Shown: in pieces, positions 32,643-38,195 of the stretch
How the letters are laid out: every line of letters starts with the position of its first letter
Numbering within the stretch: the stretch's first letter is position 1
DNA from: Geomonas oryzisoli
Lineage (GTDB): Bacteria > Desulfobacterota > Desulfuromonadia > Geobacterales > Geobacteraceae
Length of the DNA stretch: 64,000 nt
Direction of reading: 5' to 3'
Assembly (NCBI RefSeq): GCF_018986915.1
Contig: NZ_CP076723.1
Span: forward strand, 963,501-1,027,500
Position numbers and translations under genes: made by a program
Notes under the pieces: model-generated
Database searches by the model: none
What the model was told of the DNA's origin: nothing
Seen by the model: only the letters and a program-made list of their open reading frames with translations

Positions 32643-34655
32643 ATGCCTAACATTTTCAATGCCCAAAACGCGATCGCCCCGGCAGAATCGGGCTCTCGCG
32701 TCTGTTTCGATTTCAGCCACGTCGCCGGCGAACTGGAGGAGAGCCGCAAGCGGCTGAGCGCCGTATTCGATACCGTCCAGGTCGGCATCGTCATCATCGA
32801 CGCCGAAACCCACACCATCGTCGATGCCAACCCCAAGGCGGTGGAGATGATCGGGAGGGTGAAGGAGGAGGTGGTCGGCTCCGTCTGTCACTGCTTCATC
32901 TGTCCCGAGGAGAGCGGGCACTGCCCCATCACCGACCAAGGTCAGCGCATCGACAACGCCGAGCGCCTGTTGATGAAGGCCAACGGCGAGAGCATCACCA
33001 TCGTGAAGACCGTGGCGCGGGTGAAGCTGTACGGGCGCGACCACCTGATCGAGAGCTTTTTGGACATAAGCGACCGGAAGCGGGCCGAGGAAGAGCTGAG
33101 GGAGAGCGAGGAGCGCTACCGCGACATCCTGGAAAATGCCAACGACCTGATCCAGAGCGTTGACGCCAAGGGAAACTTCATCTACGTGAACAGCGCCTGG
33201 AAGAGGACCTTGGGGTATTCGGACCAGGATATCGCCTCGATGAACATCTTCGACGTGATCAAGCCCTGCTGCCAAAGCCACTGCGCCACCATGTTCGATC
33301 AGCTGAAGAGCGGCGCGAGGATCCCGCGGGTCGAGGTGGAGTTTCTCGCCAAGGACGGCCGCAGCATCATCCTCGAAGGGAGCATAAACTGCAACACCAG
33401 CGACGGGCAGGTCAGCACCAGGGGGGTCTTCCGCGACATCACCGAGCGCAAGCAGATGGAAGCCGAACTCACCCAGAGTGAGGACCGTTACCGCAAGCTC
33501 TTCGAGAACGCGCCTGAGGCGATCCTGGTGCAAAGCGAAGGGCGCTACGTGTGCGCCAACAGGGAGGCCTGTCACCTTCTGGGGGTGGGGAGTCCCGAGG
33601 AACTGGTCGGTCAGTCCATCTTCTCATTCGTGCATCCCGACTTCCACGGCATGGTGGTCGAGCGCATCCAGCACATCCACGAAACAGGTGATCCCTCGCC
33701 GCTGCGGGAATCGCGCATGGTGCAAAAAAACGGAACCGTGATCGACGTTGAGGCTGTGGCGACCGGGATCGTGTTCCAGGGGCAGCAGGCGATCCAGGTC
33801 ATCATCCGTGACATCACCGAAAGAAAGCAGGTCGAGGAGCAGCGCAGGGAGCTGAACAGCCGTCTGGAAAAGATGGTGGAGGAGAAGACCCGGCACCTCA
33901 AGGAGGCCCAGGCCAAGCTGATCCAGTCGGAAAAGATGGCGACCCTGGGCGAGGTCATCGCGGGCGCGGCCCACGAGCTCAACAACCCGCTGGCCGGAAT
34001 CCTGGGTGCCATCCAGATGCTGCGCAGCAACGCGCTGGCCCATCCGATCGATCCCGAGTTGATGGAGGGAATCGACGTGCTGGAGAGCATCGAGAACGCC
34101 GCGGTGCGCTGCCAGAAGATCGTCGAGGACCTGGTCCGCTTCACCACCCAGGCCCGCTGCAACTTCAGCGACATGGATATCAACGAGGTGCTCAAGGACA
34201 CCATGGAGATCATGGCCGGCCCCTTCGAGGAGCAGAAGATCAAGGTCGCGCTGCACCTGGACCCGGAGGTGCCCCAGATCGAGGGAGACTTCGTGAAGCT
34301 GCTGGAGGTCTACGTGAATCTCCTGCAGAATGCGAAGAGCGCCCTTCCCAACGGCGGCCGGATCGACATCAGCACCGCACTGGTGAAGAAGTACGGCGAG
34401 CCGCTGCAGGTGTCGGTGGTGATCCGCGATAACGGCTGCGGCATCCCGCCCCAGAACCTGGCCAAGATCTTCGATCCCTTCTTCACCACCAAGCCGGCAG
34501 GGAAGGGGCCCGGGCTCGGCCTCACCGTAAGCTACGGCATCGTGAGGCGGCACGGAGGCGATATCGACGTTCGCTCGACAGTGGGGAAGGGGACCGAAGT
34601 GACGGTCACCGTCCCGGTCCGGCAGCAAAAAGCCACCACCTACCAGGCCGGCTGA
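32643..34655 (+). CDS. PAS-domain sensor histidine kinase
   Basis: A 670-residue soluble kinase. Three PAS/PAC units lie at about 30-150, 155-275 and 280-400, each ending in the usual DI(S/T)(D/E)RK(Q/R) segment. The first contains a Cys cluster (CHCFICPEESGHCPI) that could bind metal or heme. A coiled coil (about 400-435), HisKA with His444 (GAAHELNNPLAG) and HATPase with NLLQNAKSA, DNGCGIPP and FFTTKPAGKGPGLGL follow. No receiver is attached, so it needs a separate partner; the NtrC-type regulator next door is the obvious candidate. Confidence 0.9.
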   Translation: MPNIFNAQNAIAPAESGSRVCFDFSHVAGELEESRKRLSAVFDTVQVGIVIIDAETHTIVDANPKAVEMIGRVKEEVVGSVCHCFICPEESGHCPITDQGQRIDNAERLLMKANGESITIVKTVARVKLYGRDHLIESFLDISDRKRAEEELRESEERYRDILENANDLIQSVDAKGNFIYVNSAWKRTLGYSDQDIASMNIFDVIKPCCQSHCATMFDQLKSGARIPRVEVEFLAKDGRSIILEGSINCNTSDGQVSTRGVFRDITERKQMEAELTQSEDRYRKLFENAPEAILVQSEGRYVCANREACHLLGVGSPEELVGQSIFSFVHPDFHGMVVERIQHIHETGDPSPLRESRMVQKNGTVIDVEAVATGIVFQGQQAIQVIIRDITERKQVEEQRRELNSRLEKMVEEKTRHLKEAQAKLIQSEKMATLGEVIAGAAHELNNPLAGILGAIQMLRSNALAHPIDPELMEGIDVLESIENAAVRCQKIVEDLVRFTTQARCNFSDMDINEVLKDTMEIMAGPFEEQKIKVALHLDPEVPQIEGDFVKLLEVYVNLLQNAKSALPNGGRIDISTALVKKYGEPLQVSVVIRDNGCGIPPQNLAKIFDPFFTTKPAGKGPGLGLTVSYGIVRRHGGDIDVRSTVGKGTEVTVTVPVRQQKATTYQAG

Positions 34656-34841
34656 CCCCGGCAGCGGGGGGCGGATTTGCGGCGGCTACGCCGTGAGCTT
34701 AATTTCATTTGACATTTCCCTCCCTATCTGGTTAAACCTTCTACGCGATGGCAAGGGCAGCAACCGCTGCCTGAGCCAATCGGGGGGGCTTGCGGGTCCG
34801 ACTCGAAGCGCGCCAGAACGGACAGCACCGGAAAAAAGATA

Positions 34842-34922
34842 AACGATAATACTAAACCATCCGCGAGGGTGGGACGGAAAGCCCAAGGGTCTCCCTGAGA
34901 CAGCCGGGTTGCCGAAATATCT
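34842..34922 (+). ncRNA. GEMM-I riboswitch, probably the cyclic AMP-GMP (GEMM-Ib) class
   Basis: The sequence has the GEMM core in order: AAACCATCC, GGGTGGGACGGAAAGCC, a GGGTCTCCCTGAGACAGCC hairpin arm and closing GGGTTGCCGAAATATC that pairs with the 5' side. It is nearly the same as Geobacter GEMM-Ib aptamers shown to prefer 3',3'-cGAMP over c-di-GMP, recalled rather than searched. An overlapping terminator follows. The upstream part (34656-34841) contains no gene; the promoter is not clear. Confidence 0.88.
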
Positions 34923-34962
34923 GGCAGAAATTCAGCTAAGATACCGGCAACCCGTTTTTTTT
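34905..34962 (+). terminator. Riboswitch expression-platform terminator
   Basis: CGGGTTGCCG (34905-34914), which is also the 3' strand of the aptamer's closing stem, can pair with CGGCAACCCG (34945-34954) followed by eight T. Ligand binding would hold the first strand in the aptamer and allow read-through, giving an ON switch. Confidence 0.85.
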
Positions 34963-35102
34963 TGCCCGCTTCTAATGATGTTTCCCTAAGCCTGCCCCCT
35001 GGCCGTGACGGCGCAGCAGCGCAACCGCCGCACCCATCGCTTTTTTCTTTAACGCAGACATTCATGCCAAGGCCCTCAGGGGCGGCGGCAGGAGAGACCC
35101 AC

Positions 35103-36884
35103 ATGCACGATGCGGCTAACGCCCCACAAAGTAGCCTGCAGCTGGGGTCCTGCTCCGGGCAGTTGCTGAGTCAACTGCAGCAGGACGATGAGCGCCTGGC
35201 GATGCTGAAGGAAGCCATCGACTGTCTTCCCATCGGCGCGGGGATCACCATAAGCGACCGGGACGGCAAAATCGTCTACGCGAACCACGCGGAGTCGGAG
35301 ATGCACGGTTACGCTCCCGGCGAGCTCGCCGGCAGGCCGGCCCACATCCTGGCTCCCGAGGGCAAAGGGGGGGGGCGTATCAACCACCGCACGGCGGGCC
35401 TGTGGAAGCGCGAGTGCCTGAACGTGCGCAAGGACGGCAAGATCTTTCCGGTCCAGCTCACCTCCCGGCCGATCAGGAACGCCGCCGGCGACTACCTCGG
35501 TATGCTGACCGCTTGCGAGGATATGACCCAGAAAAAGCTCTGCGAACAGCAGCTCGAAACCCTCGCCTACTACGACAGCGTCACCAAGCTCCCCAACCGG
35601 GCGCTGCTCATGGACCGCCTGCACCAGGCCCTCGCCCTCGCCCAGCGTGAGCGGCGCGAGCTGGCTCTGCTCTTTCTCGACCTGGACAACTTCAAGGACC
35701 TCAATAGCTCCAAGGGGCACGAGGTGGGGGACAAGTTCCTGCAGGAAGTGGCGGGCCGGCTGGCGGGGTGTCTGTGCGAATCCAACACCCTGGCGCGGCT
35801 TGGGGGGGATGAGTTCGTCATCGTGATCAATTCCGTCCCCGGGGAAGAAGGCGTGGCCGCCACCGCGGCCAGACTGCAGGCCCTCTTCGCCGAGCCCTTT
35901 CTTATCAATGGGGAGGAACTCTACGGCAGCACCAGCATCGGCATCGCCCTGTTCCCCGAGGACGGCCGGGACGTGGAGAGCCTCTTGCGCTGCGCGGATG
36001 CCGCGCTGTACCAGGCCAAGAGCCAGGGGAAGGCAGGCTACCAGTTCTTCTCCCAGGAGATGAACCAGGTCAACATGCGGCGCGTGGCGCTGGAGAACGG
36101 GATGCGCCAAGGGCTGGCGCGGGGGGAATTCTACCTGTACTTCCAGCCCCAGTGGGACCTTAAGAGCCTGCGGCTCACCGGGGCGGAGGCGCTTTTACGC
36201 TGGCACAGCGCCGAGTTCGGCGTGGTGGGGCCGGACGAGTTCATCCCCATCGCCGAGTCGTGCGGCTTCATCTTCGACCTGGGGGAGCTGGTGCTGCGGG
36301 AGGCCTGCCTGCATGCGGTGGAGTGGGGACGGTTCTGTCCCGGCCTCAAGGTCGCCGTCAACATCTCGGGGCGGCAGTTCCGGCAACCAGACTTCCTGGA
36401 GACGGTGGCGCGCATCGTCCAGGAGACCGGTGTCCGCCCAAGCTCCCTCGAGCTGGAGTTCACCGAGAGTGTCATCATGGAACGTGCCGAGAAGAACGTC
36501 CATGCGCTGCAGGCGCTGAAAAAGATGGGGATGAAGCTCAGCATCGACGACTTCGGGACGGGCTATTCCTCGCTCAACTATCTCAAGCACTTCCCCATCG
36601 ATGCCATCAAGATAGACCGCTCCTTCATCGCCGACCTCGTCACCGACAGCGACGACGCCGCCATCGCCGAGGCCATCATCTCCATGGCCCACAGCTTGAA
36701 GCTCAAGGTCATCGCCGAAGGGGTCGAGGGGGACGCGCAGCTCGACTTCCTGGTGGAACGAAGCTGCGACGAGGCGCAGGGCTTCTACTTCGCCCCCCCC
36801 ATGCCGGGGGAGGATTTTACCGGCTACGTCAAGCGGTTTTCCGTAGCGGAAGGTGATCTCAAACCGTTGAGTGTCGCAGGCTGA
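35103..36884 (+). CDS. PAS-GGDEF-EAL cyclic dinucleotide protein
   Basis: A 593-residue protein without membrane segments. PAS (about 35-150; ITISDRDGKIVYANHAES) is followed by GGDEF (about 160-320) with intact LGGDEF (234-239) and the substrate-recognising FKDLNSSKGHEVGD. EAL (about 335-585) has EALLRW (362), VNISGRQF, LEFTES, SIDDFGTGYSSL, IKIDRSFI and AEGVE intact. The Asp of HEVGD is retained, so this GGDEF looks like a c-di-GMP cyclase, not a Hypr cGAMP synthase (which carries Ser). Both activities may be present. Expression is apparently controlled by the riboswitch upstream. ATG 35103 has AGGAGA upstream. Confidence 0.92.
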   Translation: MHDAANAPQSSLQLGSCSGQLLSQLQQDDERLAMLKEAIDCLPIGAGITISDRDGKIVYANHAESEMHGYAPGELAGRPAHILAPEGKGGGRINHRTAGLWKRECLNVRKDGKIFPVQLTSRPIRNAAGDYLGMLTACEDMTQKKLCEQQLETLAYYDSVTKLPNRALLMDRLHQALALAQRERRELALLFLDLDNFKDLNSSKGHEVGDKFLQEVAGRLAGCLCESNTLARLGGDEFVIVINSVPGEEGVAATAARLQALFAEPFLINGEELYGSTSIGIALFPEDGRDVESLLRCADAALYQAKSQGKAGYQFFSQEMNQVNMRRVALENGMRQGLARGEFYLYFQPQWDLKSLRLTGAEALLRWHSAEFGVVGPDEFIPIAESCGFIFDLGELVLREACLHAVEWGRFCPGLKVAVNISGRQFRQPDFLETVARIVQETGVRPSSLELEFTESVIMERAEKNVHALQALKKMGMKLSIDDFGTGYSSLNYLKHFPIDAIKIDRSFIADLVTDSDDAAIAEAIISMAHSLKLKVIAEGVEGDAQLDFLVERSCDEAQGFYFAPPMPGEDFTGYVKRFSVAEGDLKPLSVAG

Positions 36885-36907: not shown

Positions 36908-37627
36908 ATGTCAACGATGCAACAGATAGCGCGTGCGCTCGTACTGCAGGCAGTCGCCCTGCCGCTCATGCTCTCACAGGCACAGGCTGGCAACGTCGGA
37001 GTCGACGTCAACATTCACCTGGGCAGCGACCCCCGCCCCGTGGTGGTGGCCCCGGCCCCCGCACCCCGTCCGGTCGTGGTGGCGCCCGCGCCGGTGCCGG
37101 TGTACCAGCCCGATCCCTACTACTACGACGAGCCCGAGGAGGACGTTCAGTTCATCTACCCGCAGCCGTTGGGGTTCTACGTGGCGGTCGGGGTGCCCTA
37201 TGACCTCTTCTACCTCAACAACGTCTACTTCGTCTTCCGTGACGGGCGCTGGTACAGCTCGCCCAACAACCGCGGCGGCTGGGTTCCGGTCGGGTACCGC
37301 GAGCTTCCCTCGCCGCTGCGCCGCTACCGCATCGAGCGCATCCGCGAGTACCGCGCCCGCGAGTACGCCGTGTACCAGCGCGACCGGGACCACTACCATG
37401 GCAGGCACAGAAGCGACCGCGGCTACTGGAAGGCGCGCCACGAGCAGCAAAAGGACGAGAAGAGGTTCGCCAAGGAGCAGAGAAAGGAAGAGAAACGCTT
37501 CGAAAAGGAGCAGAGAAAGGAAGACAAGCGTTTCGAGAAGGAGCAGAGGAAGGAGCAGAAACGCTACGAGCACGAGCAGCGCAGGGAAGAGAGGGGCTTC
37601 GACCGTGACCGTCACGGCCGCGACTAG
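36908..37627 (+). CDS. Exported protein with charged C-terminal repeats
   Basis: A 239-residue protein with a signal peptide (about 1-27, ending AQA), a Pro/Val/Ala-rich segment (45-75), an acidic Tyr-rich stretch (PDPYYYDEPEED), and a central domain (about 85-140) with FYVAVGVPYDLFYLNNVYFVF and RDGRWYSSPNNRGGW. The C-terminal third consists of near-repeats of KRFEKEQRKE, likely a long helix. Similar exported YXXW-rich proteins are found in many proteobacteria without known function. AGGAGG precedes the ATG. The end overlaps the tag gene by 23 bases. Confidence 0.75.
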   Translation: MSTMQQIARALVLQAVALPLMLSQAQAGNVGVDVNIHLGSDPRPVVVAPAPAPRPVVVAPAPVPVYQPDPYYYDEPEEDVQFIYPQPLGFYVAVGVPYDLFYLNNVYFVFRDGRWYSSPNNRGGWVPVGYRELPSPLRRYRIERIREYRAREYAVYQRDRDHYHGRHRSDRGYWKARHEQQKDEKRFAKEQRKEEKRFEKEQRKEDKRFEKEQRKEQKRYEHEQRREERGFDRDRHGRD

Positions 37628-38195
37628 CCCGAAGCGCTGCGGCTGGGCCGGGAGCGATCCCCTTTACTGTGCCTACCATGACCTCGAATGGGGAGTGCCG
37701 GTGCACGACGACCGCCTCCTCTTCGAGTTCCTGACCCTGGAAGGGGCGCAGGCGGGGCTCTCCTGGATCACCATCCTGCGCAAGCGCGAGGGATACCGCC
37801 GCGCCTTCGCAGGCTTCGATCCGGAGCTTGTGGCCCGCTTCTGTGAAGCCGACCAGGCCCGGCTCATGGCGGACCCCGCCATCGTCCGCAACCGCCTCAA
37901 GATAGGTTCGACAGTCGACAACGCGCGCGCCTTTCTCGGGGTGCAGCAGGAGTTCGGCTCCTTCGACGCCTACCTCTGGCGCTTCGTGGACGGCGTCCCC
38001 GTGCAGAACGCGTGGCGCAGCCTCTCCGAGATTCCCGCAAGAACCGACCTCTCGGACCTGTTGAGCCGCGACCTCAAGCGGCGCGGCTTCCGGTTCGTGG
38101 GGAGCACCATCTGTTACGCCATGATGCAGGCGGTCGGCATGGTGAACGACCATACCGTCGACTGCTTCCGCTGGTCCGAGCTGCAAAACCGCTGA
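37605..38195 (+). CDS. tag: DNA-3-methyladenine glycosylase I
   Basis: Removes 3-methyladenine from alkylated DNA as the first step of base-excision repair. The 196-residue protein has the family start RCGWAGSDPLYCAYHDLEWG (zinc Cys, Tyr and Glu of the lesion pocket), the LEGAQAGLSW loop and the C-terminal GSTICYAMMQAVGMVNDHTVDC (His and Cys zinc ligands). Length fits (about 187-195). The start is GTG 37605, with GAGGGG upstream inside the previous gene. The frame is open further left only as a shadow of that gene. Confidence 0.92.
   Translation: MTVTAATSPKRCGWAGSDPLYCAYHDLEWGVPVHDDRLLFEFLTLEGAQAGLSWITILRKREGYRRAFAGFDPELVARFCEADQARLMADPAIVRNRLKIGSTVDNARAFLGVQQEFGSFDAYLWRFVDGVPVQNAWRSLSEIPARTDLSDLLSRDLKRRGFRFVGSTICYAMMQAVGMVNDHTVDCFRWSELQNR

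Follow-up and report, generated by a model that had tools for sequence, protein, structure and literature searches.

In Geomonas oryzisoli, a riboswitch of the GEMM-Ib (cGAMP) type precedes a gene encoding a PAS-GGDEF-EAL protein. For the 64,000-nucleotide stretch of DNA analyzed here (the window), the original prediction was of a cGAMP-type RNA that may turn on a c-di-GMP enzyme, and the sequence supports this through the match of 13 of 13 pocket residues, the anatomy of an ON switch, the enzymatic motifs, and the pairing of riboswitch and enzyme in 13 of 13 genomes. We refined it in two respects: the conserved output is more likely that of a phosphodiesterase than that of a cyclase, and the wiring is local to Geomonas as far as the leaders examined show. 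The explanation that we favor, and to which we give about an even chance of being correct, is an operon turned on by cGAMP whose enzyme would act mainly as a phosphodiesterase, so that rising cGAMP would lower c-di-GMP and release GacA. If true, an RNA reading one cyclic dinucleotide governs an enzyme of another. The leader contains the following features.

34709-34737 (+), putative promoter, assigned from leader conservation: TTGACA at 34709-34714, a 17-nt spacer, and the extended -10 element TGG-TTAAAC (TTAAAC at 34732-34737)
34838-34921 (+), GEMM-I aptamer with the features of GEMM-Ib (cGAMP), P1b GATA/TATC included; RF01051, 49.7 bits
34851 (+), selectivity position, occupied by A (the equivalent of position 20; A14 in 4YAZ), assigned by alignment to published pocket residues
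34905-34963 (+), intrinsic terminator, assigned from fold energy and arm pairing; 5' arm 34905-34914 common with the aptamer, U9 at 34955-34963

The aptamer was the single Rfam match at the gathering score in the whole 64-kb window. RF01051 matched positions 34841-34916 of the forward strand with 49.7 bits (gathering score, 35; E = 1e-06), and the outer P1b helix, GATA/TATC, widened the aptamer from there to 34838-34921. A GEMM-Ib aptamer core had been read from the sequence in the original prediction, which named the Rfam c-di-GMP-I (GEMM) covariance models as a check; the match above the gathering score and the A at position 20 bear this reading out. The related model RF03167 gave 49.3 bits, under its own gathering score of 59, in a permissive Rfam scan of 34600-35120. 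A second aptamer suspected by eye at 34745-34840 was rejected, since the same scan gave the known aptamer alone; the sole other match at the permissive threshold was asR3, on the opposite strand and at chance level. A further covariance model (R1) was built from 15 such aptamers, the window aptamer included. Its score of 105.9 bits on the window aptamer is not independent evidence because that aptamer was in its training set, and independent support comes from RF01051. The 24 pairs of the aptamer model were 97.5% paired across 15 aptamers, and three pairs were altered on both sides. The outcome of the shuffling control was mixed: 15 of 500 shuffles matched the both-side changes, 20 of 500 matched the further pair types, and 0 of 500 matched the other three measures, in a set of 15 aptamer rows that were mostly paralogs of one genome.

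All 13 pocket residues reported for the Geobacter cGAMP structure (PDB 4YAZ) were matched by the window aptamer at one constant offset, which was set in this analysis with residues taken from published lists rather than from the crystal RNA sequence. One list comprises G8, A9, A11, A12, A14, C15, G40, A41, A42, and C75 (PMC6274999), and the second G8, A11, A12, U13, A14, C15, A41, A42, G74, C75, and C76 (PMC7288161). The resemblance to Geobacter cGAMP riboswitches noted in the original prediction thus extends to the contact residues. With the GEMM-Ib riboswitches of Geobacter (pgcA/GSU1761, Gmet_0970, and pilM; PDB 4YAZ) the window riboswitch has in common the fold, A20, the pocket, and a terminator placed on the 3' strand of the aptamer. 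In the Gmet_0970 riboswitch, the A20G exchange turned selectivity from cGAMP to c-di-GMP (PMC6456294), and two riboswitches of G. sulfurreducens and G. metallireducens favor cGAMP ~1200- and ~1600-fold (PMC6456294, PMC8835794). The ligand of the window riboswitch is predicted with high confidence to be cGAMP.

A promiscuous or c-di-GMP-preferring aptamer would instead make the arrangement an ordinary feedback of c-di-GMP on a c-di-GMP enzyme. At least one aptamer of the A20 type, that of omcST, responds to cGAMP and c-di-GMP alike (PMC6456294), so that cGAMP selectivity of the window aptamer is likely and not certain, and the Rfam family itself is the c-di-GMP-I riboswitch. We nevertheless consider such a feedback quite improbable in view of the complete match to the reported cGAMP-pocket bases and of a separate set of eight aptamers in the same genome with G at the selectivity position. 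In total, that genome has 21 GEMM-I matches (20 above the cut-off), with A at the selectivity position in 13 and G in 8. Twelve of the 13 A-type aptamers are closely alike (L007-L018, L007 being the window aptamer). The 13th, L005 (G000:C1:3289977-3290052), combines A at position 20 with a background that resembles GEMM-Ia. In another genome, a GEMM-Ib-like aptamer (L251, G036:C24:25705-25789) has G rather than A at the selectivity position, possibly a natural reversal to c-di-GMP.

The terminator stem comprises 10 bp, formed by 34905-34914 and 34945-34954, and is followed by the U9 tract. Folded alone, the terminator gave -26.5 kcal/mol (z = -4.68), and 0 of 200 shuffles were equally good. 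The whole leader gave -42.8 kcal/mol (z = -2.76; 1 of 200 shuffles equally good), and its minimum-energy fold had the terminator present and the aptamer closing helix absent. Because the 3' strand of the aptamer is the 5' arm of the terminator and the leader fold favors the terminator, both structures compete for one strand. The use of the aptamer closing strand by the terminator had been predicted, and 34905-34914 indeed belongs to both. C34912, the ligand-pairing C of the aptamer, is paired with G34947 in the terminator. Among 18 Geomonas leaders, the terminator arms were fully paired (10 of 10) in 15 and lacked a single pair (9 of 10) in three, with the 3' arm chosen by script as the best-pairing placement near the U-tract, a choice that favors pairing; paired changes in these arms were to G-U, on the free side. 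The terminator was missing from a simple consensus scan, whose loop limit was 8 bases.

In pilM of G. metallireducens, cGAMP binding excludes the terminator, and the terminator captures C75, which makes the element an ON switch (PMC9262584). The same anatomy was found here, with aptamer and terminator mutually exclusive and the ligand-pairing C sequestered by the terminator, and the window riboswitch is very likely to turn transcription on with ligand. In the absence of cGAMP, the aptamer 3' strand at 34905-34914 would pair with 34945-34954, the terminator would form, and transcription would stop. With cGAMP bound, the strand would stay in the aptamer, C34912 would pair with the ligand, and RNA polymerase would read through. 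As to the start of the transcript, the stretch 34707-34741 has a mean pairwise identity of 0.81 among 13 orthologous leaders, compared with 0.46 on its upstream side and 0.60 on its downstream side. A consensus promoter scan found no promoter in the leader; TTGACA-17-TTAAAC with its preceding TG is the likely promoter of the riboswitch operon.

The enzyme gene follows the leader.

35087-35094 (+), ribosome-binding site GGCAGGAG ahead of the ATG at 35103, conserved across the aligned leaders with the exception of L115
35103-36884 (+), PAS-GGDEF-EAL gene, 593 aa; PAS 35235-35531, GGDEF 35565-36032, EAL 36102-36800, assigned with Pfam

The sole exception to the conservation of GGCAGGAG before this ATG, L115, is the most diverged leader row, and the likely gene start is the ATG at 35103 behind GGCAGGAG. 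An in-frame TTG at 34962 is disfavored as a start, as the conserved GGCAGGAG precedes the ATG in most aligned leaders. All three Pfam domains were above their cut-offs (PAS_9, 2.2e-13; GGDEF, 3e-46; EAL, 5.1e-73). The GGDEF domain has Asp at the Hypr position, in FKDLNSSKGHEVGD (GHEVGD), together with LGGDEF, and thus carries the canonical GGDEF signature. Because of this canonical Asp, a Hypr (cGAMP-making) reading of the domain was ruled out. Its FK..N site is intact, the Asp of NDxxGH is replaced by Ser, and motif inspection of the protein gave no RxxD I-site. Aligned to MorA, the EAL motifs are complete (EALLRW, VNISGRQF, LEFTES, IDDFGTG, IKIDRSF, AEGVE, and AQGF), read against what we take to be the catalytic and metal residues of the EAL site (EAL, N, E, DD, K, E, and Q). 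The original prediction had listed GGDEF, the Asp of HEVGD, and intact EAL residues, and GHEVGD, GGDEF, EAL, DDFGTG, and AEGVE were all found. The closest solved chain was that of MorA (PDB 4rnh, 433.6 bits), which has its architecture and EAL motifs in common with the window protein; the latter differs in having one PAS domain and no I-site. MorA is not known to be riboswitch-controlled. The nearest NCBIfam models were phosphodiesterases, all below their curated cut-offs: among the phosphodiesterase equivalogs (DibA, PdeR, and others) none was above cut-off, the best being DibA with 524.2 bits against 980.

EAL domains are known as c-di-GMP phosphodiesterases, and published proteins that combine intact GGDEF and EAL motifs differ in their net output. 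The EAL motifs were present in all 13 riboswitch-linked orthologs, some with the variant LELTES, and the GGDEF motif was intact in 12 of the 13. The most diverged of them, that of genome G026, has GTDQF in place of GGDEF, FKYLLD, and an intact EAL; its identity to the window protein is 49% in the GGDEF and 71% in the EAL domain. Mean dN/dS in the clade of the window protein was 0.105 for GGDEF and 0.093 for EAL (28 pairs). The GGDEF domain is constrained as strongly as the EAL domain, which indicates a function for it, be it in catalysis or in regulation. Since the G026 protein combines GTDQF with an intact EAL, a conserved phosphodiesterase output is more likely than a cyclase, and we predict with moderate confidence that the net output is that of a c-di-GMP phosphodiesterase. 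Under a net cyclase, cGAMP acting through the same riboswitch would raise c-di-GMP and GacA would be inhibited, a negative feedback. The intact GGDEF, FK..N, and GHEVGD and the strong constraint on the GGDEF domain would fit this, as would the lack of an I-site motif, with which product inhibition is not expected; yet the degenerate GTDQF and altered FK..L site beside an intact EAL in G026 speak against it, as does the varying output of proteins with both motifs, and we regard a net cyclase as unlikely. Less probable still would be cleavage of cGAMP itself by the EAL domain, in which case the riboswitch would drive a plain negative feedback on the cGAMP that it senses. The predicted cGAMP control of the operon agrees with such an activity, and the excerpts of the Geobacter literature consulted for cGAMP name no cGAMP phosphodiesterase, but EAL domains are known for c-di-GMP and the motifs give no pointer to cGAMP.

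An enzyme ortholog with at least 57% identity was found at this locus in 13 of the 19 genus genomes searched, the own genome included, and the aptamer lay upstream of the enzyme in all 13. Seven species are named among them: G. diazotrophica, G. propionica, G. anaerohicana, G. paludis, G. azotofigens, G. oryzae, and G. edaphica. In 13 distinct leaders, 73 of the 84 aptamer positions were invariant; mean pairwise identity was 0.955 in the aptamer, 0.908 in the 3' strand of the terminator, and 0.77 around the start codon; in the other leader stretches it was 0.46, 0.60, 0.54, and 0.52. The 12 riboswitch-linked rows of the protein tree formed one clade (100/100), and five unlinked orthologs formed a separate clade (99/96). 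The G026 row stood outside this tree, as the motif filter demanded GGDEF, which is degenerate in G026. The unlinked orthologs (G035, G036, G046, G019, and G024; 52-59% identity) had no R1 match in the adjoining DNA searched. Their I-site position is occupied by RxxD (RESD and RDCD, for example). The linked orthologs are without an RxxD I-site, G025 keeping the Asp alone and G026 the Arg alone.

R1 gave 247 matches in 14 genomes of the family. Among the matches listed, 130 other GEMM-Ib leaders were examined, and none had GGDEF or EAL downstream, with ~1.5-3 kb of downstream DNA for 128 of them and 483 and 1026 bases for two. About 117 matches lay outside the 130, some of them tandem partners and about 97 of them beyond the listing. 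The 130 also do not include the known positive leader of G026 (L115/L302). A link of riboswitch and GGDEF-EAL gene general in the family is contradicted by this count among the matches listed, from which we deduce a wiring local to Geomonas; in this sample of about half the matches, the pairing looks special to that genus. In the same genome, 1 of 21 GEMM-I leaders precedes a GGDEF/EAL gene, namely that of the window. Inspected by eye, the GEMM-Ib leaders L011, L013, and L015 of this genome have apparent signaling genes behind them, for a receiver-domain, a hemerythrin-like, and a PAS-kinase-like protein. In the excerpts surveyed, the targets named for Geobacter GEMM-Ib riboswitches comprise cytochromes, pili, and lipoprotein transpeptidases as well as one transcriptional regulator and hypothetical proteins (PMC6456294), whereas the first target here is a cyclic-dinucleotide enzyme. 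A cGAMP riboswitch before a GGDEF-EAL gene is undescribed in the excerpts of PMC6456294, PMC8835794, PMC9262584, PMC6274999, PMC7288161, and PMC13130476; a mention in Kellenberger 2015 or Nelson 2015 is possible.

Two further genes follow the enzyme gene, and the transcription unit probably extends into both.

36908-37627 (+), small protein with a signal-peptide-like start, of a family labeled 'VGVDVN' in this analysis, found in the leader survey
37605-38195 (+), 3-methyladenine DNA glycosylase I-like gene (tag) with a GTG start, assigned from reading frame and gene neighborhood

The small-protein gene starts 24 nt after the GGDEF-EAL stop. The family sequence reads AGNVGVDVNIHLG..., and the small protein matched no Pfam or NCBIfam family. 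Relatives occur behind 15 of the 130 GEMM-Ib leaders examined among the matches listed and are spread over 12 of 14 genomes. All lie on the same strand; 14 start at most 300 bases from the leader and the remaining one at 744. The family may thus belong to the core of the cGAMP regulon, and the small-protein gene is likely the older target of the window riboswitch. The product of 37605-38195 is presumably a 3-methyladenine DNA glycosylase I-like protein. As tag overlaps the end of the small-protein gene by 23 nt, it may be under the cGAMP riboswitch too, and it is kept beside the riboswitch operon in the Geomonas loci examined.

The order in the linked genomes (seven named contigs and the window) is kinase, riboswitch, GGDEF-EAL, small protein, tag, and pyk. 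G026 has riboswitch, GGDEF-EAL, tag, and pyk, and the small protein was not found adjoining. In G014, G015, G022, G019, and G024, the riboswitch stands directly before the small-protein gene, followed by tag, and the enzyme is absent from the locus. In the first three of these, pyk follows tag, and G022 retains similar sequence from the kinase gene upstream. The link can be dispensed with, as G014, G015, and G022 keep the riboswitch and its neighbors without GGDEF-EAL. The enzyme gene probably entered a pre-existing cGAMP operon in Geomonas, and loss of the enzyme in the group of G014, G015, and G022 is possible; a SpoT tree, poorly resolved at the base of Geomonas, left a single gain followed by this loss unsettled. 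These loci would also suit an operon in which the small-protein gene and tag are what the riboswitch controls to any purpose, the GGDEF-EAL protein being a passenger of little effect. The small-protein family directly behind 15 of the 130 leaders examined among the matches listed and the same operon without the enzyme in three genomes point that way. We judge it very improbable, because the enzyme is under purifying selection and stands beside the riboswitch in every genome that has it at this locus, and because G026 retains the pair even though the small protein was not found adjoining.

The favored explanation, an enzyme acting mainly as a phosphodiesterase, leads to GacA. GacA (GSU1658), a Hypr GGDEF cGAMP synthase, belongs to the same signaling pathway; compared with it, the window protein has Asp instead of Ser at the Hypr position, an added EAL domain, and no RxxD I-site. 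The same genome encodes a Rec-GGDEF protein of 459 aa (L151; GHLIGS, RDVD, and GGDEY) beside a hisS-like gene. Its best solved match was 6d9m, the GacA domain of G. metallireducens (229 bits; the next, 146), and by sequence we identify L151 as the GacA ortholog with an RxxD I-site motif. GacA of G. sulfurreducens is inhibited by c-di-GMP; a cGAMP reporter rose 30-fold with the I-site mutant R393A and ~3-fold when the cyclase EsnD was lost (PMC6456294). If the first product of the operon is mainly a c-di-GMP phosphodiesterase, more cGAMP would mean less c-di-GMP, and the drop in c-di-GMP would free GacA from I-site inhibition and reinforce the cGAMP state. Because c-di-GMP inhibits GacA, a cGAMP-induced phosphodiesterase would favor more cGAMP, and the presence of a GacA ortholog with an I-site makes a loop of mutual antagonism between cGAMP and c-di-GMP plausible. 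The enzyme could feed back on GacA via c-di-GMP, to which we give somewhat less than an even chance. More tentatively, we propose a double-negative (toggle-like) loop closed by RNA, which would have arisen when the GGDEF-EAL gene joined the cGAMP operon and lost its I-site.

Work in G. sulfurreducens has shown cGAMP and c-di-GMP to be opposed, with GacA held back by c-di-GMP; the reverse arm, from cGAMP to c-di-GMP, is undescribed in the excerpts of the literature surveyed. The Geomonas locus is a direct candidate for this arm in culturable relatives, and the same operon without the enzyme in G014, G015, and G022 offers a ready natural control. GSU0946, a GGDEF-EAL protein of G. sulfurreducens, is likened here by its description, as it is likewise a putative phosphodiesterase and has been proposed to feed back on GacA via c-di-GMP; in contrast to the window gene, it came from a mutation screen and not as a riboswitch target (PMC8835794). 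The genome has 26 GGDEF genes (27 matches, as one gene was matched in two halves), with Asp at the Hypr position in 23, Thr in one (L154), and Ser in two (L151 and L158). L158 (G000:C1:4744146-4744433) combines the Ser with GGDDF, like GSU1937 as described in PMC8835794, and this genome may encode two cGAMP synthases.
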